A stretch of 31,821 nt of DNA, taken from the IMG/VR virus record IMGVR_UViG_3300032223_000593, positions 1 to 31,821 of that record. One strand, written 5' to 3'. The position numbers and the translations under genes are program-made. This stretch comes from a virus. Shown in pieces: positions 4,190-31,680 of this stretch (positions are counted from its first letter, which is position 1; every line of letters begins with the position of its first letter). The notes beneath the pieces were generated by a model. The model was not told the origin of the DNA. It searched no databases and worked only from the letters and a program-made list of their open reading frames with translations.

Positions 4190-4218
4190 ATCCCCGCTTA
4201 AAACGTGGGGATTTTTTT
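4190..4218 (+). terminator. Rho-independent terminator for the + strand block
   Basis: ATCCCC (4190-4195) pairs with GGGGAT (4207-4212) and is followed by seven T residues (4212-4218), the standard intrinsic-terminator form on the + strand. On the - strand no T-tract follows the stem, so the signal works mainly for the replication block. Its T-tract contains the complement of the stop codon of the 2133-residue gene on the other strand, so the two convergent blocks abut without spare sequence. Confidence 0.8.
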
Positions 4219-7200
4219 ATTTTTCAGGGACAATTCTTTCTCTTGCTGGATATAAATAAGGTTCAAGTTCTTTAGGCATATACTGCCCTCTATAAGTACG
4301 CTTACTTTTTTCTCTTGCGGCATCAATAGATTCTCTTATTGTGCTTGGAAGTATGGCAAGTTTTTTATTTGGGTATCTCTCATTATGCTTATCTATCTCG
4401 TCTAAAATCTTTTGTGTATCTTTTTCATCTTTAGAATTAGATATTAATGTTTCATTTAATTTATTTAATAAAGCTTGTTTTTCATTTCTAGCAATTGTAA
4501 TTTCTCGATTAGATTTAAACCCTTCTTCTTGTAGTCTAGATAATTTAGTTGGTTGAAATCCAATAGCTTGCCCAAGAATATTCATGCTGCTTAGTTCTTC
4601 AGGTTTAAGAATACTTTCCCCACGCCTAATTTCTGCGCCTTCAGTCGCTAACCTATAAGCAACTATTGGGTTTTTAAATAAAGCAGGCACCATTCTTTCT
4701 AAAGCTCTTAGAGTATGCCCATTATTAAAATCATCCAGTCCACCTACAATATCTAAACCTTTTGAAACGCCCGGACCTAAATTAGCTATCAAAAAGTTTT
4801 GAACTGCTTCTGCATCTGTTTTGCTAACTTTACCAGAATCTCTAATCCACATACCATCCATAGATGTACGTGAGCCTATATTTAACCCACTAATAGCAGA
4901 TATAGGACCTTTTTCAAGCATCTCCGCATACTTATCCCCAAACATTTCAGGTAGTATTTCTTGACGGAAACGCAAATCAAAGTTATCTGAAGTTATAGGG
5001 TTTTGAAGTCTACGTTTTCTTCTTGCTTCTTCAGCATCATCACCACCTATATTATTTAAAGTAGCATCAATAGCGGCACATATTACGCTATATAAAGGCA
5101 TACCAACTAAACCATGAAATAAACCACCCATAGCTAAAGTACCAGTAAGGCGTTTCATTGCGGCTTGTTTATCTGCCCAAGTTTCACCAGCAAAACTATT
5201 GTATCCGTTACGTACTAGATATGAAGTTACGTTGAAAGCATACATTTTAAACTGCCCTAACGTTTTACCAACAAAATTACGTAGAACTGTAGGTCTACTC
5301 ATGTTGTCATACCTACCTAATAACTCGTAGGTTTTATCTACAGCCTTTTGTACCGCACCTTCAAAATCTTTTGTCTTTGCATATTCAGCTTCAAATATCA
5401 TCATATAAGTCATCTCTCTACTTATACGTTCGGCACCATTAAACAACCCAGACATAGCATTTAAAGTCTGTCTTCCAGCATTTTGCGCAAAGTTATCGTA
5501 AGAGTTATCGGGAGTCCTACCTTTATTAGTTAGTACTGCAGTATTAGTAGCAGTAGTAACACCTCTTGCAATAGCCTCATCAAACGCATCACTTAAAAGT
5601 CTACTTTCTTTTACAAATTTAGAATCACCTACAGATACGCTGCCTTTTTCAACCCCTAAAGAACCCCATAGAGCAGAATATTTAGCAAATAAAACACCGC
5701 TTTTTACTGAGCCGTAATCCGCCCACATATTTGGCAGTACCATAATAGGTATAGATGCAAGCTGTACAGCGGCTGAAGCGGGGGCAGTTAATAACCAGTA
5801 GTATGCAAATTGATTTACTAAAGCAGAAACAGTTCCCGGTTCAGGTGGATTAAGTTCTGCCCTACCTCTAGCAGCCATTTCATCAATAATTTCGCCATAC
5901 TTACTTTTATCTGCTAACGGCATACCCTGTAAAGAATCTTTGGCTCTTTCTATTTCCGCTTCTATTTCATCGCCATACTGTAACTTAGATGCTTGCGCTG
6001 CAATTCTATTTGCAGACGTTTTAAAGTTACGAAATATATCTGCACTAAAACCAGTAATATTATCTGCAGTTATAAACTGTTTGCGAAAACTTCTTTCTGG
6101 CATAGTACGTAGGTAAGTTTGATATAGCTCATCTTTAATAGTTTCTACGTCTACATTACCTTTTTCAGCGGCTTTATCTATGATAGCAAACATATCTTTT
6201 AAGGCTTGAGTAACTTCATGCCCTGAATTACGCATAGTAGTTATATCGTTTCCAACGTTAAATCTTTCATTTACTTCGTCTTCACTAAGCCCTAACTTTT
6301 CTGCTCGTTCTTGTGCAAATAAATTACGTGCAGTACCTGTATCAAATAGGTAAAACTCTCTGCCAGTAGGTCCTTTAGATATACTCAACCAATAAATACC
6401 ATCACGCATAAATGGAAAATACTCGGTAATCTTACTTTCTTCTTGCATCTTTCTTATTGCAGACAAGAGTACTTTTTTATCTTCTCCAGGTAATTGCAGT
6501 CTATTGATTTTTGAATCTAATAGCCCACGAACCATATCCATATTATCTGCATAATATTTTTTAACCATAGCGTATAGTTCTTTACCTTTAGGGTCTAGCT
6601 TATCCCAATATTCAAAAACTCTTTCTATGCCGTTTTCTCTTAATGTAATTTGACCTCTAATAGATGGTAAGCTTTTTGAATCAGTTGCTGGGTCGCTAAG
6701 TTTAGCATTTAGTTCTTTAAGTCTTTTGTCGTTAAACATAGCGTCAATTTTATTTTTAAACCCCATAGGGCTTACACCTTCTAGCCGTGCTAAATGCATA
6801 GTAGCAGCTAGGTTTTTCATGTTATCTTTACCTGCTCTAATATATGCGCCTAGTTTATCTGCTTTAATAGCGGCATCTTTTAAAATTCTAGCTCTTGATG
6901 TAGCCATACGTTGGGTAATAGTATCCATGTCTTTTAAACCGGGTATTTTATTACCTATCCAACGCATAATATCTGCAGTTGGTAAAGTACGTGCAATATT
7001 TCTTACAGCACCATCATCAAACGCAGTCCATCTTGCATCTAATATTCCTTTAATCTCATCAAAACTATGAGCGTCTTTTATTAAAGAAATTGTAGATTTA
7101 TTCATTTCTGTAGCGCTTTGAGATATTTCTAGTTGTTGTATTGCCTTGGCTATTCTTTTTTGTTTTGGTTTTTTGTTAAAACTTACAGATTCTAGTTTGG

Positions 7201-10200
7201 CATCAACAGGCTTTTCGGCTAATAACCCGCTACCAAGCAGTAATAAATCTTGCATAGCAGATTCATGTTTAGCATCCATACCTAATGCATTACGTAGTGT
7301 ATTTGCAAACTTAGTAAATAAAGAACCAAAGAAACCGGGAGAACCTTGTTTAGCTGCGCCGGGAGTAGTTAAAAGAAAACTTATTACACCCTCATCAGAT
7401 AACCCATAAGCTAAAAACTCTTTAGCATCATCAAGTATATTAATGCCGCCTACTTCTTCTTCGTTAAACAAAAAGCCCAGTTGTGTATTAAATTCTTCTC
7501 CATTAGCCCTACGAGTGTCATATGCGTCTTTAACTCTATCCATTAAATCAAATAAGTTATCGTACAAAGCCTGCACTTGTCGAGATGGTGTACCCCCACG
7601 CATTATAGTAACTGCATACTGCTCAATCATACTATCTAGTGCGGCATGTAGAGCCTCGTGTATAACAGTAGTATTGTTAATACCATGCATATCAGGGGGG
7701 CCAAAACCCTCCCCACGAACATATATCATTTTTTTAAGGCTACCATCAGGAAGTTTAATAGTAACCATTGCACCATTAGCAGTTCCATCTTCAGTTATTA
7801 TTTCTGATAAAGGGGTACCTTTTATGGTTATCCCAGCTAAATCAGTTTTAGAATTAACAACTATAAACCCAACGTTTTTCATAAAAGGTTTAAGAGCACG
7901 TATTAATGTGCGCTCAAATGCAGTTCCAGTTTTGCTCGCTATATTTAATGCTTGTTCTGCAGTGGTTATATTTTCGCCATTAAAGGCAGTATTAGGTTTG
8001 CTATTAGTTGTCTGAGATTTACTAGCTTTAGTTAAAAGTTGTTTAGCTCGTTCTATTGCTGATTTTAATTTTGGTTCAGCTTCAGTTTTGTTTTTTGCAT
8101 CTATAGCAGCTCTTTGTTCAGGAGTTAGTTTTGCTCGTTCTGTTCTACGTGCATCAAGCACTCGTCTTTCTTCTTCAGTTATACCAGCAATAATTTCTGC
8201 TGCTTTTTTACCCGCGGCTCTATCTCTTGCTACACCTTTAGCAATATCGTCTAATTGTCCTAATAAACTAATACGTGCGGCTCTATGTTCTTGTTTTTTA
8301 TCAGCACTCATTTGTGCTACTTGGGAAGCACGTTCTGTATTTTGTTTAAGGCTTTCTATTAATTTAATAATATCTCTTACTTCTTTTTTATTTGCCGCAG
8401 ACTGTTGAGCTTTAGTTGCAGCGGCGGCGGCTATTTGTTCGGGTGTTTTTTCAACCTTTGGTCTACCACGAGTTTCTTGCAACTTAGCTATTACATCTTT
8501 AGCTGTATCTTCTTCGGTTACTTCAACATTATTGTCTGTAGCTAGTTTTGTTAAGTCTGCATTAGGCATTTCGCCTTCAGGGAATGAATACCCCCTATCA
8601 ACTGCATCTAGTACTTCATTTAGTTTTGAAGGTATTATAGCTTCTGTAGTAGGTACAATGTTTGATGGCGGAGAGATAGCCTCTCTTAAAGCTTGTATTG
8701 CTCTTTCGTTAAACCCTTTACCTGCTTCTGGCATAGGTATACGTAGCATATTCAACATACCTTTTAATTTAGAAGCATTTGGTTTTTCTACCTTAGAATC
8801 TAATTTAGTTAAATAATCTACAGCGGTTTGTTGTACTACTTGTTGGGTTGTACTTAGTGTACCTTGTTGTACATTTTGCAGTGGCGGCGTTCCTGTTCCA
8901 GCCCCTCCAACAGGTTCGATATTATTTGCCAGTCCAGCAGTGACAGGTGTTGTAAGTTCTTGGGTGTTGACTGTTCCTTGTCCAGACACAGGAACGCTTG
9001 ACTCAGTTCCTCCGGTGATAGTTCCAGGACTCGTTCCATTTGTGGCTCCTAGTTGGTTTAAAGGTATGATTGGTATCGGTGCACCATCTGCTGATACTAC
9101 TGGCGGTGTAGTTGGCGGGGTTACTGGTGGTGTGGGAGGCGCTACAGGTGGTTCTGTATTATCCGTTGTTTTTTGATTTATACTTTCTTGGGCGGCTTCT
9201 ATTGCTTCTTCATCAGTTAAAGATGGAGTTTTTAATTTTAGGTCTAGTGCTACTTGAGTTAACTCAGCTTGAGCGGCAGCCTCCACAGGAGACATGTTAG
9301 GATATTTTTTAGTCAGCGCTTCAGTTATAGTTATTATTTGGTTTTGTTTTTTTGCAGCTTCTTGTTCAGGAGTTAAAACAGGGGGTATTACTTCTCCACT
9401 TGGGGCTATAGCACTAGTAAGTCCTACATGCCCTGCACCGCCTACTCCACCACCAACAGCTTCAGCAGCGGCGGCATTAATTACTCTTTTTATATTAGCC
9501 CAATCTGTATAGCCTTTATCTTGTTCTTTTAAAGCTTTTTCACCTGCAATACTCATAAGTTCTTGAGCACCACCAGTTAACCCTTCTTCACCAATACTTC
9601 TAGGTAATTCTTTTACCGTTTGTTTAGTAAGCTCTTCTTTTGTAAGTGCTTTAGCCCCTACCTCTAAAGTTTCTTTTGCAACTTTTGCCCTTAATATAGC
9701 GCCTACTGGACCTGTAACAGAATCTAATGCGCCGCTAGCAATTGCTACAGACATAGAAACATTCATTGTTTTATTTACATACTCTTGTATTTTATTTGCT
9801 TGCTCTTCAGCAGTCAGCCCTTTCATCTCTGGCTGTTTCATTAAATGTTCTACACGATTGCCAAACTGTTCTCCAGTACTCATCCCTATACCAACAAGCC
9901 CAGCACCTAATGCACCGGCGGGGGTTAAAGAAGCCGCTACTATAGGTAGTAGTTGTACGCCAGCAGAACCTGCATTAAATGCTAACCAATTTCCAAAGTC
10001 TTTAAGTCCTTCAACATCGGTTAAATCTGTAGTTTTACCTTTGTACTTTAACGCATCTTTTTGATATTCTTGCACGGCTTTTTGTGCCTCTACAATCATA
10101 CCTTCTCTATTTTTAATAGTAGTACCCATTTCAGCTCGCATATTTTCACGGGCTTCTGGCGCTAAGTTTAAATATGTTTTTGCCATATCAAAAGACATAC

Positions 10201-10618
10201 CAGCTTTTTTAGCATCTTCTGGAGTTTTTATTTCTCCAGCATCAATCTGGTCAAACATTTTTGTATTATTTATAGCGGTATTAATAAGCGAGGAATCTAC
10301 ACCTACACCTACGTTTTGATACATGTTTTTTAGACCTATAGCGCCAGATACTATACCTTTACGGGCTTCGCTTAATCCAGGAATAGGAGATAACATATCT
10401 AATGCATCTGTAGCTCTAGATAAAAATCCTGGTTTTTCTTCTTCTTTTTGTTTAGCTAACCATTCTTCGGGGTTAAGTATACCGGCTTGTTTTTCTTCTT
10501 TTGTAGGTTGTTTTTGAGCAAGCCATTCTTCAGGGCTCGGTATACCAGTTTGTTTTTCTTTAACTTGCTCTTTTACTTGTTGAGCAAGCCATTCTTCAGG
10601 GTTAGGTATAGTAGCCAT
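4217..10618 (-). CDS. Giant ejection-type polyvalent virion protein with HExxH zinc-peptidase motif
   Basis: A 2133-residue protein, the last gene of the - strand block. From the N-terminus: three copies of a PEEWLA motif (residues 4-55), small-residue-rich helical segments, a Pro/Thr linker near residue 485, an RGRPK AT-hook-like motif at 717-721, and Lys/Gln-rich coiled segments. Next is a peptidase-like domain with HEALH (H987, E988, H991) and a downstream KEFLAYGL whose E1067 is a plausible third zinc ligand. The C-terminal third is helical; its hydrophobic stretches (about 1605-1630 and 1825-1860) flank a segment (1720-1806) that resembles the LPD38 domain of large polyvalent phage proteins. 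Such proteins travel in the virion and enter the cell with the DNA, like the T7 gp16 ejection protein, although no transglycosylase motif is visible here. It follows the 754-residue gene with a 1-nt TAATG overlap. The role is inferred from size, context and motifs. Confidence 0.85.
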   Translation of the reverse strand: MATIPNPEEWLAQQVKEQVKEKQTGIPSPEEWLAQKQPTKEEKQAGILNPEEWLAKQKEEEKPGFLSRATDALDMLSPIPGLSEARKGIVSGAIGLKNMYQNVGVGVDSSLINTAINNTKMFDQIDAGEIKTPEDAKKAGMSFDMAKTYLNLAPEARENMRAEMGTTIKNREGMIVEAQKAVQEYQKDALKYKGKTTDLTDVEGLKDFGNWLAFNAGSAGVQLLPIVAASLTPAGALGAGLVGIGMSTGEQFGNRVEHLMKQPEMKGLTAEEQANKIQEYVNKTMNVSMSVAIASGALDSVTGPVGAILRAKVAKETLEVGAKALTKEELTKQTVKELPRSIGEEGLTGGAQELMSIAGEKALKEQDKGYTDWANIKRVINAAAAEAVGGGVGGAGHVGLTSAIAPSGEVIPPVLTPEQEAAKKQNQIITITEALTKKYPNMSPVEAAAQAELTQVALDLKLKTPSLTDEEAIEAAQESINQKTTDNTEPPVAPPTPPVTPPTTPPVVSADGAPIPIIPLNQLGATNGTSPGTITGGTESSVPVSGQGTVNTQELTTPVTAGLANNIEPVGGAGTGTPPLQNVQQGTLSTTQQVVQQTAVDYLTKLDSKVEKPNASKLKGMLNMLRIPMPEAGKGFNERAIQALREAISPPSNIVPTTEAIIPSKLNEVLDAVDRGYSFPEGEMPNADLTKLATDNNVEVTEEDTAKDVIAKLQETRGRPKVEKTPEQIAAAAATKAQQSAANKKEVRDIIKLIESLKQNTERASQVAQMSADKKQEHRAARISLLGQLDDIAKGVARDRAAGKKAAEIIAGITEEERRVLDARRTERAKLTPEQRAAIDAKNKTEAEPKLKSAIERAKQLLTKASKSQTTNSKPNTAFNGENITTAEQALNIASKTGTAFERTLIRALKPFMKNVGFIVVNSKTDLAGITIKGTPLSEIITEDGTANGAMVTIKLPDGSLKKMIYVRGEGFGPPDMHGINNTTVIHEALHAALDSMIEQYAVTIMRGGTPSRQVQALYDNLFDLMDRVKDAYDTRRANGEEFNTQLGFLFNEEEVGGINILDDAKEFLAYGLSDEGVISFLLTTPGAAKQGSPGFFGSLFTKFANTLRNALGMDAKHESAMQDLLLLGSGLLAEKPVDAKLESVSFNKKPKQKRIAKAIQQLEISQSATEMNKSTISLIKDAHSFDEIKGILDARWTAFDDGAVRNIARTLPTADIMRWIGNKIPGLKDMDTITQRMATSRARILKDAAIKADKLGAYIRAGKDNMKNLAATMHLARLEGVSPMGFKNKIDAMFNDKRLKELNAKLSDPATDSKSLPSIRGQITLRENGIERVFEYWDKLDPKGKELYAMVKKYYADNMDMVRGLLDSKINRLQLPGEDKKVLLSAIRKMQEESKITEYFPFMRDGIYWLSISKGPTGREFYLFDTGTARNLFAQERAEKLGLSEDEVNERFNVGNDITTMRNSGHEVTQALKDMFAIIDKAAEKGNVDVETIKDELYQTYLRTMPERSFRKQFITADNITGFSADIFRNFKTSANRIAAQASKLQYGDEIEAEIERAKDSLQGMPLADKSKYGEIIDEMAARGRAELNPPEPGTVSALVNQFAYYWLLTAPASAAVQLASIPIMVLPNMWADYGSVKSGVLFAKYSALWGSLGVEKGSVSVGDSKFVKESRLLSDAFDEAIARGVTTATNTAVLTNKGRTPDNSYDNFAQNAGRQTLNAMSGLFNGAERISREMTYMMIFEAEYAKTKDFEGAVQKAVDKTYELLGRYDNMSRPTVLRNFVGKTLGQFKMYAFNVTSYLVRNGYNSFAGETWADKQAAMKRLTGTLAMGGLFHGLVGMPLYSVICAAIDATLNNIGGDDAEEARRKRRLQNPITSDNFDLRFRQEILPEMFGDKYAEMLEKGPISAISGLNIGSRTSMDGMWIRDSGKVSKTDAEAVQNFLIANLGPGVSKGLDIVGGLDDFNNGHTLRALERMVPALFKNPIVAYRLATEGAEIRRGESILKPEELSSMNILGQAIGFQPTKLSRLQEEGFKSNREITIARNEKQALLNKLNETLISNSKDEKDTQKILDEIDKHNERYPNKKLAILPSTIRESIDAAREKSKRTYRGQYMPKELEPYLYPARERIVPEK
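10454..10609 (-). repeat. Three PEEWLA repeats at the N-terminus of the giant protein
   Basis: Residues 4-12, 26-34 and 47-55 read IPNPEEWLA, IPSPEEWLA and ILNPEEWLA, separated by charged Lys/Glu/Gln linkers of 12-13 residues. The matching DNA (10583-10609, 10517-10543, 10454-10480) differs in several bases between copies, so the peptide rather than the DNA is what has been kept. Short linear motifs repeated on a flexible N-terminus usually serve as docking sites. Confidence 0.8.
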
Positions 10619-18945: not shown

Positions 18946-19983
18946 CTAGGTTTTAATAATAAAGTTGATACCAAGGTATGGTGAAATAGTTGATATTGCT
19001 GTTCCTGAACCAGTGCCATCTGTAGTGCCTGAAGCCGTACCTGAAGAAGTAACACTAAAGGCGTGGGTATGACCTGAGTCTGTAATTCCTGTTGTTGCTG
19101 AGGTAGTTCCAACAGAAAGAGGATAACCTTGAGTATTTGCTGCGGCGTAAAAAGTTCCAGGACCGCTAGTTCCTGCGGCAGGTAATCCATGAGCATGACC
19201 AGGGTCTGAAATAGCAGCGTTACCTGTATTTGTTGTACCTGAGCCTGTAGTTGAAACGCTACCACTAAATGTATGCGTATGGCTTGGTAAATTTGTAGTT
19301 GCAATTGTTGTTGTTGCAGCGCCACCAGTAGCACCAACTGTTGTCCCGTAAGGCATACGATTTGTATAATCAGGCACGTTAAACGTTGTTGAACCATCAC
19401 CCACGCCAAAAGTTGTACCAATAACACCAAACAAAGTAGAATAAAGTGTTCTTGAAATAGCCGTACCATTACATATAACATAGCCAGAAGGTGCAGAAGC
19501 AGTTGCCCACATTTGAATTGAACCTGCTGGAACGGTATTTGTAACTGCTGTATAAAAGTTTGAGCCGTCTCCATAAACAGGAACTGTTTGACCATTAGGA
19601 ACAAGAACCGCCGTACCCGTAGCATATTTAATCTGGATACTTTGTCCTCCAGTTGTGGAGTTTTTGATAATATAGACTTTACTTGCTGATGCTGGAGCAA
19701 TCACGTTGCGTGTTGCAGTTAAACTACCTGTGCTTGTTACTACTAAAACCATACTTCTTGACTGGTCTACCGCACCGTTATTGGCTGTTAATGTAATGTC
19801 GGCATCGGTTGGGAAGTTTACAGTTGGATATGTGCCACTTACGTATGGACCACCAGACACACCAGCAATGGCTTGTTCTAAGATTGAACCTAATGATGTA
19901 TTTGTAGTTGTACCCCAAGTACCGGCTTGGTCACCTGAGCCTATTAGCTCTGTTCTTAGGTTGGTTGAGTAGGTAGATGCCAT
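18946..19983 (-). CDS. Tail-collar-domain fibre protein with HxH motifs
   Basis: A 345-residue fibre protein. Residues about 1-150 form an N-terminal shaft (TELIGSGDQAGTWGTTTNTS is typical of this class). Residues about 150-215 contain the phage tail-collar domain: PAGSIQMWATASAPSGYVIC, then NGTAISRTLYSTLFGVIGTTFG and FNVPDYTNRMPYG. After it come three HxH motifs in SHTHTF, GHAHG and GHTHAF contexts within Gly/Ser/Thr-rich repeats. In T4 fibres such HxH motifs coordinate metal ions along a trimer axis. The protein probably contacts the host surface. It precedes the holin by 8 nt and has an AAGGAT site upstream of its ATG. Confidence 0.88.
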   Translation of the reverse strand: MASTYSTNLRTELIGSGDQAGTWGTTTNTSLGSILEQAIAGVSGGPYVSGTYPTVNFPTDADITLTANNGAVDQSRSMVLVVTSTGSLTATRNVIAPASASKVYIIKNSTTGGQSIQIKYATGTAVLVPNGQTVPVYGDGSNFYTAVTNTVPAGSIQMWATASAPSGYVICNGTAISRTLYSTLFGVIGTTFGVGDGSTTFNVPDYTNRMPYGTTVGATGGAATTTIATTNLPSHTHTFSGSVSTTGSGTTNTGNAAISDPGHAHGLPAAGTSGPGTFYAAANTQGYPLSVGTTSATTGITDSGHTHAFSVTSSGTASGTTDGTGSGTAISTISPYLGINFIIKT

Positions 19984-19992
19984 TATTTATCC

Positions 19993-20184
19993 TTACGGGT
20001 AGTTGTTATACACAGGAACCCAAGTTACAGTTTGACTGTCGTTAATTGCAATCCAGCCACGTTGTGCAGCCGTATCTAATAATACCAAATTTTCAGTTAT
20101 TTGACTACTAAACGAAGCTATTACAGCAATAGAATCCGCTAAGTTTAAGCTTTCTGTTACAGTGCCTGAAAAGATTGTCGCCAT
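19993..20184 (-). CDS. One-repeat miniature paralogue of the 20-residue-repeat protein
   Basis: A 63-residue protein. It has one complete 20-residue unit (VTESLNLADSIAVIASFSSQ), the start of a second (ITENLVLLD), and then a cap (GWIAINDSQTVTWVPVYNN). The upstream gene at 20186-20962 ends in the equivalent cap (GWIRIDDSETTEWVLIDN). The two genes are 1 nt apart and have diverged at the DNA level, so this is an older tandem duplication or a contracted relative rather than a sequencing artefact. It is probably a structural fibre or tip component; I do not know a named family. Confidence 0.75.
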   Translation of the reverse strand: MATIFSGTVTESLNLADSIAVIASFSSQITENLVLLDTAAQRGWIAINDSQTVTWVPVYNNYP

Positions 20185-20185
20185 A

Positions 20186-20962
20186 TTATTGCCTGTTGTC
20201 TATTAAGACCCATTCGGTTGTTTCACTATCATCAATTCTAATCCAGCCCCAGCCTATTGGCAAGGAATCAAGCGTTATTGGTTCTGTTATAGATGATGCA
20301 AAGTTTCCTATTCCTACGGGCTGGTCGGCTAAATTTAAATTTTCTGTAAGGGCATTAACAAAAGCTGCCACTACGGTTTGGGTATTTGCCACGCCTATGT
20401 TTTCAGTAATATATGTAATAAATGTAGCTACAACAACTTCTGAATCTGTCTCAGTAATCGTACTCTCAACAACCGCCGCAACAAATGCCGCTACTACGGA
20501 CTTTAACTCCGCTAAAGTTACTGCTTCTGATATGACAGAAAACTGTGTACGCAGTGGGCTTGATGCATCTGCCGCCGTTATAACTTCAGTAATGGCTGAA
20601 ACAAATGCAGCTACTACTGCCTGTGTGTTATTTATAGTTAAAGCTTCTGTAATAGCTGTAGCAAACGTTGGTGCGCCGATAGATGAATCTGTTAAAGTCA
20701 ATGCCTCAGTAATTGCTGACACAAACGCAGTTACTAACGACTCTAACTCCGCTAAAGTTATTGCTTCTGATATGGCAGAAAACTGTGTTCGTAATGGGCT
20801 TGATGCATCTGCCGCCGTTATAACTTCAGTAATTAAAGATGCAAACACCGCTGTTAAAGACTGTGAATCCGCTGAAGTAAAAGCCTCAGTAATAGCCACA
20901 ACATACGCAGATGTACCTAGCGTAGCATATGGAGATTGAGCGAAGCCAGCGTAACCGTACAT
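20186..20962 (-). CDS. Virion protein built from about ten 20-residue ITE repeats
   Basis: A 258-residue protein. After a 23-residue N-terminus, residues 24-224 are ten consecutive units of 20 residues (one has 21) with the pattern [IV][TS]E...T.AD......F.SA. An eleventh partial unit and a cap containing GWGWIRIDDSETTEWVLID follow. The constant 20-residue period with fixed hydrophobic, Glu and Asp positions suggests a solenoid or a trimeric repeat shaft. Units 2-3 and units 6-7 are nearly identical, revealing a recent internal duplication. It sits between the glycine-rich adhesin and its one-repeat paralogue, so a receptor-binding or fibre role is likely. No enzymatic motif is visible. Confidence 0.8.
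   Translation of the reverse strand: MYGYAGFAQSPYATLGTSAYVVAITEAFTSADSQSLTAVFASLITEVITAADASSPLRTQFSAISEAITLAELESLVTAFVSAITEALTLTDSSIGAPTFATAITEALTINNTQAVVAAFVSAITEVITAADASSPLRTQFSVISEAVTLAELKSVVAAFVAAVVESTITETDSEVVVATFITYITENIGVANTQTVVAAFVNALTENLNLADQPVGIGNFASSITEPITLDSLPIGWGWIRIDDSETTEWVLIDNRQ
20480..20833 (-). repeat. 240-bp direct repeat inside the ITE-repeat gene
   Basis: The segments at about 20480-20593 and 20720-20833 are imperfect direct copies offset by exactly 240 bp, or four 20-residue units. Within them 39 nt are identical (20555-20593 and 20795-20833), and a second perfect stretch covers 20504-20520 and 20744-20760. The other units share only protein-level similarity, so this duplication is the youngest event in the array. 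Confidence 0.9.
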
Positions 20963-21627
20963 TAGAAAAACGCTGTAACAATAATTACACCAGAAATACC
21001 ATTGGAATAAGTTCCGCCACCTACACCGCCGCCACCACCAGAACCATAAGCATTTCCACCACTGGCAAAACCATTACCACTTCCTGAGCCACCACCAGAA
21101 CCACCATCTCCAAATGGAGAACTTGCACCTTTGCCACCAACATAATATGGAGCAGATGCCCAACCATATGTACCATACGAGCCAGTTGCGTTTAAATAAC
21201 CGCCGGTTGCTGTACCACCAGCACCGCCATATCCAGTAGTAGTACTTGCAGTGCCTGCCGTACCGCCGTTAGCAGTAAATAAAGAAGTTCCGAATGTAGA
21301 ATTTCCACCACTACTGCCGGCAACCGCAGCTCCAACCGAATATGAATATGTGGTAGATGGGCTTGTGATAATGCCTTCTAAATAACCAGCTGCACCGCCA
21401 CCGCCACCAACACCACTTGCACCTGAACCACCTGCGCCACCTCCACCAATCATGCGAACAGTAATGTATTTGGTGTTAGTAGGTACTGTGTAAGTTCCTG
21501 AACCTGATGTATATGCAGTTACTTGGGGAACAGCATGACTAATCTGTGTAGAAGTATCATTAAAAGTTAATTGGTTTACAGAACCACTAAGTGTAATACC
21601 ATTTGTTCCATCAATCGTAGTTGTCAT
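20962..21627 (-). CDS. Glycine-rich receptor-binding-type fibre protein
   Basis: A 221-residue protein. The N-terminus (TTTIDGTNGITLSGSVNQLT) is a short shaft motif common to phage fibres. A beta segment TYTVPTNTKYITVRMIGGGG leads into a Gly/Ser/Ala-rich domain with many GGGG clusters (about residues 80-210) and a hydrophobic end GVIIVTAFF. This is the known glycine-rich tail-tip domain (polyglycine loops as in gp38-type adhesins), whose loops bind host receptors and vary between phages. It overlaps both neighbours by 1 nt (TAATG). It probably determines host range together with the S74 fibre upstream. Confidence 0.85.
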   Translation of the reverse strand: MTTTIDGTNGITLSGSVNQLTFNDTSTQISHAVPQVTAYTSGSGTYTVPTNTKYITVRMIGGGGAGGSGASGVGGGGGAAGYLEGIITSPSTTYSYSVGAAVAGSSGGNSTFGTSLFTANGGTAGTASTTTGYGGAGGTATGGYLNATGSYGTYGWASAPYYVGGKGASSPFGDGGSGGGSGSGNGFASGGNAYGSGGGGGVGGGTYSNGISGVIIVTAFF

Positions 21628-22898
21628 TATTTAGCCTCCAACGCTGTTAATCGTGTTGTTAATGATTCTATTAATGCTTGTTGTTCTTTTACTGCGTTAA
21701 TTAAATACCAAGTTAAATTTGTTGTATCTACAGACATTACACCAGTTGATTCTGTTTTAACGCAATCAGGAAGAATAGCTTGAAGTTCTTGGGCAATTGT
21801 GCCCAGTTGAACACCTTTAATATCAATGGCATTTTGTGGTGGTAATTCTGTAATTTCTTCTGCGGTGCGATATTCAAAATTGCGCACTTGAATTGCTTTG
21901 ATTGCAGAAAGCCCCATTGTATTATCAACTATGTTCTTTTTAAGCCTTTGGTCAGATGTAATAGCCCAAACAGTAGAATTGTTACCTTGATAAACAGAAC
22001 CATATCCGCCTGAATATGTTGCAATTCTTGTTGTGTTAGAGCCTTGACCACCTGCTCCTACGCCAATAACAATACAGTTGTTATCTGTAGCAGCATTAGG
22101 ATTTGCAGTATACCCAATAAATATATTGCTTCCACCTGTTGTTGTGTTATACCCAGCTTGATAACCTAGTGCTGTGTTATTAGATGCGGTAGTGTTATTT
22201 GCTAATGCTCCATGCCCTACTCCTGTATTGTTAGAGCCTGAAGATGTGTAATATCCTGTAGAAAGCGTAGAACCGTATAATCCACCACCAAAAAAAGCAT
22301 TTGCTACTCCTGTGGTTATTTTGTATCCAGCATTAAATCCAACTGCTGTGTTATCTGTAGCTGTTGTAGCCGAATACAATGCTCCACCACCAATAGCGGT
22401 TGAACGACCTGTACCAGTTGTTGTTGAATAGCCAGCAGAATTTCCAATAAATACATTGTCTGTAGATGTACTTCCACTATACCCAGCCTGATAACCTACT
22501 GCGGTGTTATTTGATGCGGTGGTGTTTGTTTGTAATGCACTTGTTCCAACAGCCACATTATATGAACCAGTTGAAATGCTTAATCCAGCAAAATATCCTA
22601 ACGCAGTATTTGAGCCACCTGTTCCGTTTGTATACAAAGCACCATTACCAAAAGCGGCATTATTTGAGCCTGATGAATTGGCAACTAAAGCACTAGCACC
22701 AACAGCAGTATTACTGGCAATAGAACCTGCACCTTTACCAACAGTAAGACCTGATATAGATGCGTCATTAGTAACTGTTAATGTACTACCATTTGCAGTA
22801 AGAACTGTTGTGCCGTTGCTTTGTAGGGCAAGCTGACCTGATAAGTCAGCCGTTTGTACTAATCCTGCTGATGTTGATGCGTTGATTGTGACAGCCAT
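21627..22898 (-). CDS. YadA-head-like fibre with C-terminal S74 self-cleaving chaperone
   Basis: A 423-residue fibre. Residues about 60-295 are tandem (N)TA[VL]GxxAG-type repeats, as in the left-handed beta-roll head of trimeric adhesins. The C-terminus is a peptidase S74 intramolecular chaperone: SDQRLKKNI has the Ser-Lys pair expected for autocleavage (S315 and K320), and VQLGTIAQELQAILPDCV plus a final coiled coil (EQQALIESLTTRLTALEAK) complete the domain. These chaperones help the fibre trimerise and are then released. Cleavage should therefore leave a mature fibre of about 314 residues. A 66-residue gene ends at its start codon (1-nt overlap). Confidence 0.92.
   Translation of the reverse strand: MAVTINASTSAGLVQTADLSGQLALQSNGTTVLTANGSTLTVTNDASISGLTVGKGAGSIASNTAVGASALVANSSGSNNAAFGNGALYTNGTGGSNTALGYFAGLSISTGSYNVAVGTSALQTNTTASNNTAVGYQAGYSGSTSTDNVFIGNSAGYSTTTGTGRSTAIGGGALYSATTATDNTAVGFNAGYKITTGVANAFFGGGLYGSTLSTGYYTSSGSNNTGVGHGALANNTTASNNTALGYQAGYNTTTGGSNIFIGYTANPNAATDNNCIVIGVGAGGQGSNTTRIATYSGGYGSVYQGNNSTVWAITSDQRLKKNIVDNTMGLSAIKAIQVRNFEYRTAEEITELPPQNAIDIKGVQLGTIAQELQAILPDCVKTESTGVMSVDTTNLTWYLINAVKEQQALIESLTTRLTALEAK
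22151..22538 (-). repeat. Imperfect 58-nt direct repeats in the fibre-head gene
   Basis: The stretches at 22151-22208 and 22481-22538 match closely and are 330 bp apart, both encoding the TTASNNTA[LV]GYQAGY segment of the head repeats. They show how the beta-roll array grows by duplication and could also be a site for recombination between phages. Confidence 0.75.
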
Positions 22899-24243: not shown

Positions 24244-24738
24244 TTACAAAACTATCCAGCGTTGACCAGAACTAACAGTAACCGACTGCCCACTTGCTAC
24301 CGTAATTGGACCAGCTGAAATAGCGTTACTTCCTGTAGGCACTGTAAAAGATGCAGATACCGTAGCGTTGTTTAATAAAAGACCATTACTAGCATTAAAT
24401 GCCGGTGAAAATGCCGTGCCTGTTGTAGCATCTTGGTTTACACTTCGGCTTGATGGGTACGTAATAAATACGTTTACTGTTCCTGAGAACGTAACTGCAC
24501 TTCCAGAGTTAGACGAAGCATAGACTGTGGTTCTTGTTAAAGTTGGTCCAGTTGTTGAGTAACTTCCTAACCCCGTTTCCCAATTGCCCGAAGCATCAAA
24601 TGCGGAGTAATAGGTTGTGTTTCCGTTTCCAACCCCCGCCAAAGATTGAAATCCTGTAACTGTTCCTGTTAAAGTAAAGCTAATGGTAGTATTACTACTC
24701 CCAGTTTGTTGTGAACGGTCAAGCAGCACCAAAGCCAT
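24244..24738 (-). CDS. Small beta-rich virion protein
   Basis: A 164-residue protein. The segments TGFQSLAGVGNGNTTYYSAF, NWETGLGSYSTTGPTLTRTT and GTVNVFITYPSSRSV form a pattern shared by many environmental-phage structural proteins of unknown exact role. No signal peptide, coiled coil or catalytic motif is visible. Its ATG overlaps the stop of the upstream GIY-YIG gene by 1 nt and it is followed 11 nt later by the 377-residue fibre gene. A fibre-base or adaptor role is possible. Confidence 0.78.
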   Translation of the reverse strand: MALVLLDRSQQTGSSNTTISFTLTGTVTGFQSLAGVGNGNTTYYSAFDASGNWETGLGSYSTTGPTLTRTTVYASSNSGSAVTFSGTVNVFITYPSSRSVNQDATTGTAFSPAFNASNGLLLNNATVSASFTVPTGSNAISAGPITVASGQSVTVSSGQRWIVL

Positions 24739-25319
24739 TATTTATTTCCTAACAATTCTTTTGACCACGTATAACCTTTATGGCATTTCTCTTTGCCATT
24801 TGCGCAATTATATATGTGTTGCGCTGTAAACCCTGCGTTTCCCATAGCTTTTTTACCAATTATGCTAATTACCTCACCAGTATTTATATTGGTGCCAATA
24901 AATTTAAATTGTGTTTTTAAAATCATTTGCTTTTTAATTGTTTCTGCAGAATGTTTTCTACCAACCCATTGTGTATTACCTTTATTGGCTAAACTAATTT
25001 TTGCTTTTGTTTCTTTGTTGCAGGGTATTCCTTTATTCCAAGGTATTGTTCCTAAAGAACCTTCTCCTCCATCTGTCATGTTGCATAGTTTATACCCCAT
25101 ATCTTTAAAACAAGATATTAAAATAATTTCATGGTCCAGTGCTTCTTTGTTGGTATCCCATGTGGCTAATATTTGTACTTTAGGTTTTCCATATTTTGCA
25201 ACAACCCTATGCCAATACTTGTTTCTGCCTTTTAAGGAATTTGCACGATACTCCCCACTGCCCTTACCTATGTAAAATAAGCGACCTTGTGGGGTATAAT
25301 GGGCGTATGTATAAAACAT
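24738..25319 (-). CDS. GIY-YIG homing endonuclease
   Basis: A 193-residue homing endonuclease. The catalytic domain runs from residue 3 (YTYAHYTPQGRLFYIGKGSG, the GIY...YIG pair in modified form) to the conserved glutamate region EALDHEIILI (E64). NUMOD3-type DNA-binding helices follow (KETKAKISLANKG and SAETIKKQM, residues about 102-132), and the C-terminal FIGTNINTGEVISIIGKKAM, then FTAQHIYNCANGKEKCHKGYTW, resembles the NUMOD1-type element. It is inserted between the 259- and 164-residue structural genes. Its stop codon overlaps the next start by 1 nt. Homing would copy it into related phages that lack it. Confidence 0.92.
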   Translation of the reverse strand: MFYTYAHYTPQGRLFYIGKGSGEYRANSLKGRNKYWHRVVAKYGKPKVQILATWDTNKEALDHEIILISCFKDMGYKLCNMTDGGEGSLGTIPWNKGIPCNKETKAKISLANKGNTQWVGRKHSAETIKKQMILKTQFKFIGTNINTGEVISIIGKKAMGNAGFTAQHIYNCANGKEKCHKGYTWSKELLGNK

Positions 25320-27077: not shown

Positions 27078-27803
27078 TTAAATTACGCCTCCTTTTGGAG
27101 CTGCGTTTAATTTTAACATCCCATCTCTATAACTATCACCACGTTCAAGAGCATCGCACAGTCTACGTAATTCATTCATTGCTTCAGTATATTTAGCTGT
27201 ATAGAAAGTGATAATATCCTGTTCCGCCTTCATAAAAATAGCGGCTTCTAACAAGCAACCATAGAGTAAAACAGGGTCATAGTTATCACCAAGCCAAGAC
27301 TCACCAGCAGTAACAATAGATGCTGGATAATAAAAATAATGCATTTCAACCTGATAATTAGCATCAGGTGTAGGTCCTAGGATATAAGACAATGCATTTG
27401 CATTATTGTATTGTGTACCAAATAAAGCGTAATACTTAGGTGTTCCACTAGCGGCTGGGTAAGGATAAGCCTCACGGATAAAGTTAACATCTTTATTTAA
27501 AAGATACGTATAAGGCACCGTAAGGTCATTAGTATAAACAGCGACAGAATAAGCTGATAACCAATCAGTCGGTAAAGATAGGTATTGATTTCCAGAACTT
27601 ACAGTACCTGTTACGTTTCTTCTTAAAGCCGGTATATTTATAGAGTTATAAATACGTGTTTCTGCTTGGGTAATAAATGTATTAACTTGGGTATTACTTG
27701 CTGTTGTTACAGTCGTAGTTCCATCAGTCCCAGTAAATGTAGTACTTGGGAATTCGTTTTCACAATACGTTTTTATTGTATTGAATAACGTTGTATAGTT
27801 CAT
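27078..27803 (-). CDS. Head-tail adaptor, SU10-type
   Basis: A 241-residue protein. The start MNYTTLFNTIKTYCENEFPS and the later FITQAETRIYNSINIPALRR, LSLPTDWLSAYSVAV and YDPVLLYGCLLEAAIFMK are the pattern of the SU10-like phage adaptor class that sits between portal and tail. Length is normal. It overlaps the following small gene by 1 nt and ends 2 nt before the HNH gene. With the 244-residue protein at 29.1-29.8 kb it probably forms the head-tail connection. Confidence 0.8.
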   Translation of the reverse strand: MNYTTLFNTIKTYCENEFPSTTFTGTDGTTTVTTASNTQVNTFITQAETRIYNSINIPALRRNVTGTVSSGNQYLSLPTDWLSAYSVAVYTNDLTVPYTYLLNKDVNFIREAYPYPAASGTPKYYALFGTQYNNANALSYILGPTPDANYQVEMHYFYYPASIVTAGESWLGDNYDPVLLYGCLLEAAIFMKAEQDIITFYTAKYTEAMNELRRLCDALERGDSYRDGMLKLNAAPKGGVI

Positions 27804-28261: not shown

Positions 28262-28639
28262 TTAACTGATTGTTACACTATTAGTCACACCTGTTGATTG
28301 TAATGCATTTGGTGTTTCATTAAAATCGTATTTCATACCTACAGGGTTCCATCCCCATTGAATCTGTCTACTACCACCACTAGGAAACCCGCTAACATCA
28401 TAACCTGACTGGTAATAACTATTATCTCTACGTGGCTCTCTTACTGCTTGTGGGTCATTTACCGGATACATGCCTAATTGCAACTGCGGCTGGTCCATTT
28501 CCCAACACTCGTGACATACTTTAATACTGACATTTTTTGTCTTAATAGTCAACTTCTTTAGCTCTGTAAGCTTATATCTAAACCCACATCTATCGCACTC
28601 GGCAATAGCAAACTTGCCAGACGAGAACATCGTAGTCAT
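28262..28639 (-). CDS. Small protein with four-cysteine zinc ribbon
   Basis: A 125-residue protein. CDRCGFRY (C15, C18) and CHECWE (C42, C45) form a typical zinc ribbon of the kind seen in phage structural proteins (CxRCGFxY ... CxxCWE). The C-terminal half is Pro/Gly/Asn-rich, with QIQWGWNPVGMKYDFNETP. It overlaps the upstream gene by 4 nt. It is probably a virion protein, since this family appears next to head-tail adaptors; the exact role is unknown. Confidence 0.78.
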   Translation of the reverse strand: MTTMFSSGKFAIAECDRCGFRYKLTELKKLTIKTKNVSIKVCHECWEMDQPQLQLGMYPVNDPQAVREPRRDNSYYQSGYDVSGFPSGGSRQIQWGWNPVGMKYDFNETPNALQSTGVTNSVTIS

Positions 28640-29088
28640 TTTCTAGCCTTGCCGTATCCGCGCGTTGCTAATTTACCAGCAACTTTTGGTTTAGCCGAAT
28701 TACTTTTTGATTTAACCGAACCGCCTTGGTTAAATTCTGTTTTATAGCCAACTTCATATCTTGGTTGCATTGGACTATTTAATGGTTTAATGATTTTTCC
28801 ATAAAATCCAGATGGATGTTCGTATGTAGCGTCTATTCCACCTATTTTATTAATCTGTCCTACTGGAGTATCAACATTGATGCCCGTAGCGCCTAGATTT
28901 AACTTCCCCTTTTTATCCGCATATTCCCCTCCAACGCGTGCCAAATGTCCCGGAATTGATGGTCCCATATCAGGATTATGAGGAAATGCTCCTGCACTAA
29001 TAGAAACGGGAAGATAATTTGAGTCTATATTTTCGTCATCCGTTTCACGAAGTTTTTCATTTGCTCGTTCTGATAAACTTTTAGCCAT
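28636..29088 (-). CDS. Virion-associated protein ending in the KVAGKLATRGYGKA tag
   Basis: A 150-residue protein. Residues 50-115 are an ordered beta-type region (LARVGGEYADKKGKLNLGAT, then GQINKIGGIDATYEHPSGFY), followed by a linker with FNQGGSVKSKS and the terminal KVAGKLATRGYGKARK. The last 14 matched residues are identical to those ending the proteins at 30170-30418 and 31149-31451. It overlaps the next gene by 4 nt and starts 1 nt after the gp4-like gene. Function unknown. Confidence 0.75.
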   Translation of the reverse strand: MAKSLSERANEKLRETDDENIDSNYLPVSISAGAFPHNPDMGPSIPGHLARVGGEYADKKGKLNLGATGINVDTPVGQINKIGGIDATYEHPSGFYGKIIKPLNSPMQPRYEVGYKTEFNQGGSVKSKSNSAKPKVAGKLATRGYGKARK

Positions 29089-29089
29089 T

Positions 29090-29824
29090 TTAACTATTCC
29101 CTAAATAGGTCATTCTAGGTATAAAACGAATCGGTGCCTTCTCACGGTCTTCTTCAGAGGCAAATTGGAACTGCTGTTCATAATCTTGTTTTAAACCCAT
29201 AACCCTATTAACGTCCATATTAGGAAGTTTTAAAGACAAGTAATAAGCTAAACCAGCCACCATACAAGGCAGCCAACGAAACGGAATATCTTGGGTATTT
29301 ACAGCATTACCAGCGTCCTGTATACGGCGCATACGCCAATAAACAAAGGTATAGTAGTTAGACTGGTCAGGGGTGGGCCAAACTGTGACTTGAGGGCTTC
29401 TATCAGGTGTTGCACCGGTAGGGTAGGTTGCGCCAGACTGCCTATTAATCCATACTTGAATTGGTCTTCCCTGCGCTAGTTTATTAGGGATTGTAGAGTA
29501 GGTAGATATACTGATGCGACTGATGGTGATATCGGTTTGATTGTTAGTTTGTCCAGCATTTGTTCTAATCTGGTGTTCCAATAAATCAATCGTATCCGTA
29601 GGTAAGTCGTAAGTGTTAGTACCCTGCACCATTGGTATAGTGCCTTGTTCAATTGTCCAAAGATTAATTCCACGGTTTGCCCATTCAATAGTTAGTAAGT
29701 TTAAAGAACGTCTTGCTGTACGAAAGTCATAACCAGAGCGCAACTCTTGACCACACCTCTCAAATGCTTCTTCAATAAGGTCTGATAAGTCTAGATTAAA
29801 TGCACTGGTTCCAGTTGTTGTCAT
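29090..29824 (-). CDS. Head-tail connector/tail-accessory protein, P22 gp4-like
   Basis: A 244-residue protein. The helical start LIEEAFERCGQELRSGYDFR, then TARRSLNLLTIEWANRGINLW, matches the first helices of P22 gp4-like accessory proteins common in environmental podovirus-like phages. It continues with DLPTDTIDLL and VTVWPTPDQSNYYTFVYWRM, and a helical C-terminus FRWLPCMVAGLAYYLSLKLP. It should join portal to tail. Its ATG overlaps the stop of the 41-residue gene upstream (ATGA). The family assignment rests on pattern recognition. Confidence 0.8.
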   Translation of the reverse strand: MTTTGTSAFNLDLSDLIEEAFERCGQELRSGYDFRTARRSLNLLTIEWANRGINLWTIEQGTIPMVQGTNTYDLPTDTIDLLEHQIRTNAGQTNNQTDITISRISISTYSTIPNKLAQGRPIQVWINRQSGATYPTGATPDRSPQVTVWPTPDQSNYYTFVYWRMRRIQDAGNAVNTQDIPFRWLPCMVAGLAYYLSLKLPNMDVNRVMGLKQDYEQQFQFASEEDREKAPIRFIPRMTYLGNS

Positions 29825-29951: not shown

Positions 29952-30173
29952 TTACCTTTTTTTAGCCGTCTTTGCTGAATTGGTGAAATCCATACTGGTT
30001 GGTGCGCCTTTACTTCCGGGTTTGCGCATTTTTTCTTTAGAGCCAGCGGCAATACGAGCTTGCTTTTTATGGATATTTTCATATAAACCGCCCTTCTTTA
30101 ACAGCACTGCTGACTCACTTGTCTTAGGTATTTTTTTAGGGGACATTGCTCCCATACCACGACTAGCTTTCAT
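29952..30173 (-). CDS. Small basic protein with GLYENIHKKQARIAAG motif
   Basis: A 73-residue, Lys/Arg-rich protein. The central KKGGLYENIHKKQARIAAGS, then KEKMRKPGSKGAPT, followed by FTNSAKTAKKR, is a conserved pattern of small proteins in environmental phages. The ATG overlaps the upstream stop by 4 nt, and the next gene starts 5 nt downstream. The charge suggests nucleic-acid or capsid-interior binding. Function unknown. Confidence 0.75.
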   Translation of the reverse strand: MKASRGMGAMSPKKIPKTSESAVLLKKGGLYENIHKKQARIAAGSKEKMRKPGSKGAPTSMDFTNSAKTAKKR

Positions 30174-30418
30174 TTTGCTTTACCATACCCACGAGTAGCT
30201 AGTTTACCAGCGACTTTACCACCCTTTTTGTACTTGTCGCCCATAGGATTCGTAGTCTCACCAGTATCTGGCTTACCTACTATATTTTCTTTAGCTTCGT
30301 TTAATTTCTTCCCTAGCCTAGTTTTACTCATAGACTCTTCGGCGGCTTTGTTTTCCGCTTCAGTACCCATAATGTTTTCTTTAAGGCGAGTAATAGGGTT
30401 ATTGGATTTGCTTGGCAT
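30170..30418 (-). CDS. Small protein ending in the KVAGKLATRGYGKA tag
   Basis: An 82-residue protein. The N-terminal half is helical and charged (ITRLKENIMGTEAENKAAEE and KTRLGKKLNEAKENIVG), a short linker follows, and the C-terminus is YKKGGKVAGKLATRGYGKAK. The body shares nothing obvious with the two other tagged proteins. It lies 2 nt after the His-rich gene and overlaps the following gene by 4 nt. Function unknown; a virion or assembly component is inferred. Confidence 0.75.
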   Translation of the reverse strand: MPSKSNNPITRLKENIMGTEAENKAAEESMSKTRLGKKLNEAKENIVGKPDTGETTNPMGDKYKKGGKVAGKLATRGYGKAK

Positions 30419-31148: not shown

Positions 31149-31451
31149 CTATCTTGCCTTCCCATATCCTCTAGTCGCTAATTTACCAGCGACTTTACCA
31201 CCTTTTTTCATTGGTTTGATTTTAGAATCTTTATCAGCGCCAAGCACCTCTTTGAGACCTTTATGACTATCATCTCTAGGCTTCATTACACCTTGGTCTA
31301 GCCCACCATCAGGTGGTCTTAGTGCTTCATATTCATTTTTTTCATTAGGCATAAGCAAACCCATTACATTAGGGCGCCGTGTTCTTACAACTCCAGAATC
31401 TTTTGTTTTTCCAGATTTAATTTCACTTGCTATATTATCTATATCAGCCAT
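31149..31451 (-). CDS. Small protein ending in the KVAGKLATRGYGKA tag
   Basis: A 100-residue protein. ATG 31451 is preferred because it follows the upstream stop by 1 nt, whereas the longer frame (from 31472) overlaps that gene. The N-terminal part has RTRRPNVMGLLMPNEKNEYE, then ALRPPDGGLDQGVMKPRDDS, a mixed sequence with no recognised fold. It ends MKKGGKVAGKLATRGYGKAR. The same 14-residue end recurs at 30170-30418 and 28636-29088. Function unknown. Confidence 0.75.
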   Translation of the reverse strand: MADIDNIASEIKSGKTKDSGVVRTRRPNVMGLLMPNEKNEYEALRPPDGGLDQGVMKPRDDSHKGLKEVLGADKDSKIKPMKKGGKVAGKLATRGYGKAR

Positions 31452-31452
31452 A

Positions 31453-31680
31453 TTATTTCCAAAATTTTTCAAAAGCTGCTATTATTACACCGCCAAATAA
31501 TACTGCAAGTACATTGCTAATATAATGATATGTTTTCTTTTCTGCTTGTTGTTCGGCTAACATGCGGCGTATATCATTAACGCCTGCTTTTAACTCCTCA
31601 ACGTCTTTTACAAGCTTATCCATGTCATCCTGCAAATGCTTTAGTTCGTTGGCATGAGTAGCTAGCTCTCTAGCTGTCAA
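31453..31680 (-). CDS. XhlA-like coiled-coil membrane protein (start possibly frameshifted)
   Basis: A 75-residue protein as read from TTG 31680. Residues 5-48 form a coiled coil (HANELKHLQDDMDKLVKDVE, then ELKAGVNDIRRMLAEQQ), and a single transmembrane helix follows (ISNVLAVLFGGVIIAAF) with a short Lys end. This coiled-coil plus C-terminal membrane helix layout is that of XhlA-type haemolysin/holin-associated proteins. There is no ribosome binding site for the TTG. An ATG at 31708 with GGTGG upstream starts a 12-codon reading frame that, after removing one A at 31681-31683, would join this frame to give 84 residues. It lies far from the holin-endolysin pair. Confidence 0.7.
   Translation of the reverse strand: MTARELATHANELKHLQDDMDKLVKDVEELKAGVNDIRRMLAEQQAEKKTYHYISNVLAVLFGGVIIAAFEKFWK

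Follow-up and report, generated by a model that had tools for sequence, protein, structure and literature searches.

The window analysed here, a 31,821-nucleotide stretch of viral DNA (IMG/VR record IMGVR_UViG_3300032223_000593), contains a tail-fibre cassette with two genes for repeat proteins, array A and its short paralogue array B, whose features are collected with those of the surrounding genes in Table 1. Array A overlaps the upstream Gly-rich gene by one base; of 103 family members, 82 have an ORF at most 80 nt upstream, and 34 of these show the same one-base overlap. The collar, S74 and tail-fibre matches of the neighbouring proteins bore out the location in the tail-fibre region that had been given in a preliminary description of this DNA, and since SU10-type adaptor genes are present, the phage is probably short-tailed. 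A plus-strand ORF (20175-20939) was considered as a separate gene and rejected, being the antisense shadow of array A. Three small proteins encoded on the minus strand (28636-29088, 30170-30418, and 31149-31472) share the C-terminal peptide GKLATRGYGKA[RK]; this pattern occurs three times in the window, not once in 100 shuffles, and in none of 315 loci, few of which cover that region.

Table 1. Array A, array B and other genes and features of the window.
Feature	Coordinates	Strand	Basis or remark
Array A, repeat-protein gene, 258 aa	20186..20962	-	ORF and unit profile
N-terminal motif MYGYAGFAQSPYATLG, residues 1-16; family form MFGxxxFAQxPFAxLG	20915..20962	-	Family conservation
Ten-unit array, residues 24-224	20291..20893	-	Unit profile
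Block copy 1, units 2-3, residues 44-83	20714..20833	-	Nucleotide identity to copy 2; holds 39-nt repeat
Block copy 2, units 6-7, residues 124-163	20474..20593	-	Nucleotide identity to copy 1
C-terminal Trp-containing tail WGWIRIDDSETTEWVLIDNRQ, residues 238-258	20189..20251	-	Kept in relatives
Array B, short paralogue, 63 aa: two units and GWIAINDSQTVTWVPVYNNYP, a W-containing end resembling that of array A, without N-terminal motif	19993..20184	-	Directly downstream of array A
Tail fibre protein, 345 aa: GTWG-type N-terminal region and Phage Tail Collar domain (PF07484, E 1.6e-21)	18946..19983	-	
Upstream gene: Gly-rich domain (PF21722, E 3.6e-9), matches tail-class phrog_863	20962..21627	-	
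Protein with C-terminal Peptidase_S74 chaperone domain (PF13884, E 4e-11), tail spike/fibre PHROG matches	21627..22898	-	
Homing-endonuclease-like gene with NUMOD3 motif, inside the fibre cassette	24738-25319	-	
SU10-type adaptor (PF24175, E 5.6e-22), upstream of the fibre cassette	27078..27803	-	
Second, different SU10-type adaptor gene	29090-29824	-	
2133-aa protein: LPD39 domain and N-terminal ~21-residue tandem repeat containing PEEWLA	4217-10618	-	

The regular array of ten 20-residue units described beforehand was confirmed by a profile of the unit, which placed successive units 20 residues apart in eight cases and 21 in one (units 7/8), and by the identity at lag 20 (0.269), which lay above the maximum at that lag among 5000 shuffles (0.160). 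The majority residues of the 20-residue seed units are I-T-E-A-L-T-L-A-D-T-E-S-V-V-A-A-F-A-S-A. The preliminary description had also reported a 39-nt perfect repeat 240 bp apart, concluding that four units were copied recently and that the array is still expanding. The 39 nt are indeed identical at 20555-20593 and 20795-20833, and they exceed the longest exact repeat in 2000 synonymous-codon shuffles (27 nt). Nucleotide identity is 93% between units 2 and 6 and 82% between units 3 and 7; just N-terminal of this block the lag-240 identity is about 0.5-0.7, resembling other unit pairs, and C-terminal of it mostly 0.2-0.4. The alternative that four units were duplicated in tandem as a 240-bp piece was rejected, because the lag-240 identity is high only for units 2-3 versus 6-7. 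Copying is thus real, but what was copied is one two-unit block present twice, not four units. Between the two block copies 12 of 40 codons differ (six synonymous and six nonsynonymous), so that the copying can be called recent in a relative sense only.

Used as a query, array A retrieved two relatives from IMG/VR (L003 and L004) and none from GenBank phages. A DNA pattern for two consecutive units recovered at least 120 IMG/VR stretches, and among the matches listed 110 of 131 sequences (the window and repeat fetches of some contigs included) reached a chain score of at least 35, the maximum in a control of 3000 shuffled ORFs being 22.7. A pattern for the N-terminal motif was common in IMG/VR viral contigs, and in the genome collection it gave one stretch, in a MAG named Halieaceae. 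The family sample comprised at least 198 distinct complete proteins with the N-terminal motif in at least 181 clusters at 90% identity, 147 of them with at least three units. The family layout consists of the motif MFGxxxFAQxPFAxLG, a 20-residue array and C-terminal WxxI repeats, and array A likewise has an N-terminal motif of this form and a period-20 array before a W tail. Many uncultured phages in IMG/VR therefore carry relatives of the 20-residue profile, for which a search in other phages had been suggested.

Six ITE-type queries run against 50,697 GenBank phage records with the low-complexity filter on gave no convincing relative (best match E 0.04, covering a third of the query). Neither a consistent Pfam or PHROG match for the family nor a significant PDB sequence match was found. 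In 85 members Pfam gave scattered unrelated matches to 28 families, each in at most six members (best E 1.5e-4), and the PHROG scan of members hit 16 families, among them one named 'tail fiber' in two (E 1.1e-4), baseplate and tail families in one each, and one unnamed family in five (best E 0.004). Among titles and the beginnings of abstracts, a corpus with most subscription journals outside it, no paper describing this repeat family was found. The earlier remark that no named fold is known for the repeat is in line with these searches, as no consistent known family or solved relative appeared in Pfam, PHROG or PDB sequences. As judged from sequence, the family is uncatalogued, yet common in environmental phages. 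The 20-residue array is also found as a fused module, near the C-terminal end of six proteins of 1326-1901 aa (L008, L010, L019, L065, L108, and L110), where it follows a Gly-rich stretch. These long members had no PHROG match and one Pfam match, below the cut-off; Pfam gave no match for three of the fused Gly-rich segments, and BLASTP gave none at 1e-3 between the Gly-rich gene of the window and the Gly-rich part of the fused proteins, so we do not claim homology between the two.

Repeat number is not fixed among relatives. Among the matches listed, 4-31 units were detected in the 147 clusters (11-12 in 81 of them), near relatives of the window protein having 9 and 17, and this variation in whole-unit steps agrees with the capacity for length change that had been proposed. 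Also among the matches listed, the distance from the start to the first tail Trp equals 19+20k, within 2, in 127 of 146 proteins (k 5-18, with k=12 in 67). At period 20 the mean resultant length was 0.84 over the full set of 146; without the commonest length class (72 proteins left) it was 0.77, where independent values would give 0.10, neither figure being corrected for relatedness among the proteins. These results indicated that lengths differ by whole units. In 140 of the 147 listed arrays self-similarity peaked at a lag divisible by 20 and exceeded that of shuffles. When 38 proteins chosen for a length of 277-303 aa were aligned (314 columns), conserved positions proved specific to particular units.

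Close relatives were informative on the pace of such changes. Of 59 pairs at least 75% identical among the matches listed, 47 were equal in length and 53 lay within 5 aa; L304, whose reading frame looks broken by an internal deletion or by an error of assembly, is a member of five of the remaining six, and the sixth pair differs by 11 aa. Since such pairs are nearly always equal in length, arrays usually change length slowly, and adaptive length change is not supported. Internal repeats that are exact over 30 nt or more were present in 10 of the 147 listed arrays, and over 39 nt or more in eight, that of the window among them (median, 13 nt). Continuing expansion as a general property of these arrays was accordingly weakened, both by the same length of 53 of 59 close pairs and by the small number of arrays with long exact repeats. 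The window array, L229, and L237 contain long identical stretches at a distance of exactly 240 bp (four units), possibly by chance; a four-unit superperiod was not clear in the family, the mean unit identity being 0.34-0.37 at lags 1-7 and 0.365 at lag 4.

In the lineage of the window itself, unit number differs more than in most close pairs: array A has 10 units in the window, 9 in L003, and 17 in L004. Its sequence identity to the window protein is 59% in L003 and 51% in L004 (the same contig as L100), whereas the 139-aa, 259-aa, adaptor, and collar proteins are 97, 91, 80, and 91% identical in L003 and 96, 92, 95, and 91% identical in L004, the collar comparisons spanning 148 and 98 residues, respectively. 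Other parts of the fibre cassette diverge too, with 81 and 73% identity to L003 and L004 over part of the length for a 164-aa neighbour, 28% over 124 residues for the S74 protein, and 44-81% for the other neighbours; the cassette is therefore mosaic, and the array is one variable part of it. Array B has two units in the window and 11 in each relative, where it measures 278 aa (L003) or forms a 310-aa ORF, 300 aa from its MFG start (L004); the window copy seems to correspond to the final two units and the C-terminus of this longer gene. Arrays A and B are separated in L003 and L004 by four or five ORFs that are absent between them in the window, and in all three it is array B, not array A, that precedes the collar gene.

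Similar ends were also found around other repeats. Among the matches listed, 31 clusters have the N-terminal motif without a detected ITE unit, and 25 of them carry a W motif near the C-terminus. The best lag in the 27 that exceed 150 aa was 20 or 40 in 17 cases, 22 or 44 in five, and another value in five, and in four of the 27 no lag rose above shuffle level; three of the four short proteins seem unrelated except for the N-terminal motif. The clearest other repeat types are VALTGVSASGAVGTV-like ones (e.g., L145 and L211) and those of L131 and L296, and the repeats of L191 and L224 look like diverged ITE units; a missing profile match does not prove the absence of common descent. The non-ITE member L199 matched gp68 of Pelagibacter phage HTVC023P (QGZ17697.1; 25% identity, E 2e-5), and a metagenome-assembled phage, DSL-LC04, was matched by both L145 (E 3e-16) and L199 (E 5e-13). 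Both matched proteins are annotated as hypothetical.

The association with the GTWG-type fibre gene was analysed from both sides. From 80 loci matched by the downstream fibre gene, 68 were used, after dropping three in which the match lacks the gene start, four with less than 700 nt upstream, and five with identical upstream proteins. In 53 of the 68 the fibre gene is immediately preceded by a gene for a repeat protein, many of these loci being closely related; the 53 consist of 26 ITE-type arrays, seven proteins with a 22/44-residue repeat and 20 further 22/44 frames. In 20 of the 24 loci left blank by an ATG-only ORF finder, an open frame with a 22/44-residue repeat and a W tail occurs 12 nt upstream. 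Fifteen loci lack a directly upstream repeat gene: nine have other genes, two a W tail only, and four are without. Starting instead from the arrays, and counting clusters drawn from the matches listed that have at least 1.5 kb of downstream sequence, a strict motif test placed the fibre gene next in 42 of 102 ITE and 4 of 25 non-ITE clusters. The sample chosen by fibre gene thus supports the pairing of array and fibre gene, and the sample chosen by array points either to exceptions to the pairing or to fibre genes that escape the motif test. In six named phages, the gene before the GTWG gene encodes a clear repeat protein in HTVC023P and DSL-LC04, a protein of weak periodicity in HTVC027P (0.14 at lag 44), and a non-repetitive one in CRP-901, CRP-902, and MinM2.

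Structure prediction with AlphaFold2 gave monomer models of very low confidence, with a mean pLDDT of 40.9 for the window protein (85 alignment rows) and of 33.8 for L035 (38 rows), the latter showing about one low-confidence strand per unit. No globular fold with non-equivalent repeats appeared. Low pLDDT fits an obligate oligomer and a disordered chain equally well. Within the unit, odd positions are more conserved than even ones (1.40 versus 0.61 bits, p 0.028), a pattern that an extended strand would show. This parity is due mostly to E3, D9, and F17, and the motif that defined the seeds already required the first two of them. Hydrophobicity showed no alternation along the unit (power 0.29 at 180 degrees and 2.70 at 60). 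Among 1032 units, F17 is kept in 797 and I/V/L1 in 835.

Repetitive fibre shafts are already known as a phage part, and this protein family is not consistently matched in the catalogues. The adenovirus fibre shaft is a triple beta-spiral in which short strands and turns are repeated along a long shaft, with about 15 residues per repeat and a conserved Gly or Pro turn; the unit of array A has 20 residues and no conserved Gly or Pro. Fibres of the S74 type end in Peptidase_S74, for which array A has no match, whereas a nearby gene of the window has one. The triple-stranded beta-helix of T4 gp5 is a trimer with a VxGxxxxx motif whose length can be manipulated by adding repeats (PMC4576200); both proteins are repetitive, but array A has a period of 20 and no VxG in its unit. 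Uncultured pelagiphages, as described in PMC3909814, have T7-like tail fibres in which a repeat stretch peculiar to the individual fibre comes after a conserved N-terminus, and tail-fibre genes are variable within their populations. Those fibres have a T7-type N-terminal domain, which array A lacks (Pfam to E 10), and their repeats are specific to each fibre, whereas that of array A is common to many phages. HTVC023P gp68 resembles the family in its N-terminus (LLGITAISQSPIASLGG), its Trp-containing C-terminus, and the GTWG-type 'putative tail protein' that comes next; unlike array A, it has a best repeat lag of 22, and it was matched through the non-ITE L199, not through the window protein.

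We propose, with a probability of roughly one half, that this probably short-tailed phage has a tail appendage in which array A serves as shaft or spacer. The protein would be present in the virion, where the conserved N-terminal motif of about 16 residues would fix or start the chain, each 20-residue unit would form one rung, which may consist of a single long beta strand and a turn, and the C-terminal Trp-containing tail would close the chain. Several chains, perhaps three, would assemble into the spacer, and the downstream collar fibre gene would probably encode its partner. Length would change by whole units through duplication or deletion within the array, seldom in most lineages.

Other functions can be envisaged for the same architecture. 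The units may bind a host glycan or surface protein weakly, so that unit number sets avidity and the array is an adhesin and not a spacer. Its place in the fibre cassette, and its lower conservation (59/51%) than that of the adaptor, 139-aa, 259-aa, and collar proteins (80-97%), agree with such a role, but the divergence of the S74 protein and the other cassette neighbours does not single out the array, relatives have different repeats between similar ends, and the Pfam scans gave no carbohydrate-binding match, so we regard receptor binding as unlikely. A protein outside the virion, whose gene lies in the fibre region by chance, is very improbable: a homing-endonuclease-like gene is present in the same region, but the repeat gene directly precedes the fibre gene in the majority of the loci chosen by fibre gene, and in several contigs arrays are fused after long Gly-rich proteins.

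Other folds were weighed as well. A monomeric beta-solenoid, with one 20-residue coil per unit, would explain a period that stays constant despite differing sequences and the approximately one strand per unit in the L035 model; it is, however, rather improbable given pLDDT values of 41 and 34 obtained with 85 and 38 relatives, the lack of a significant PDB sequence match, and a hydrophobicity without alternation. Of the 'shaft or solenoid' put forward in the preliminary description, the solenoid was thus weakened and the shaft stands as the best reading. The array could also be mostly disordered, serving as a flexible linker or as a decoy on the surface, and owe its repeats to the ease with which such sequence is duplicated. 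The very low pLDDT of the two models and units rich in Ala, Ser, and Thr would fit, but retention of F17 and I/V/L1 in most units, whole-unit quantisation, and the unit-specific conserved positions in the 38 aligned proteins argue against disorder, which we consider quite improbable.

Taking the shaft reading further, a generic phage shaft can be imagined, with a fixed rung of 20 residues (22 in sister lineages) and a new fold, perhaps trimeric, defined by its period and not by its sequence; different phages would have the N-terminal motif and the Trp tail in common and insert unrelated repeats between them, and length would be set in whole rungs. This extension is tentative, and we would sooner doubt it than adopt it; if true, the generic shaft would count as one of those uncharacterised tail appendages that are common in environmental phages. 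If the role of array A as a shaft or spacer is confirmed, its units would provide a countable length marker for the evolution of tail appendages, the family would be a candidate for a new fibrous fold, and an annotation would become available for many genes that lie close to tail fibres and are now called hypothetical, one of them in a cultured SAR11 phage.
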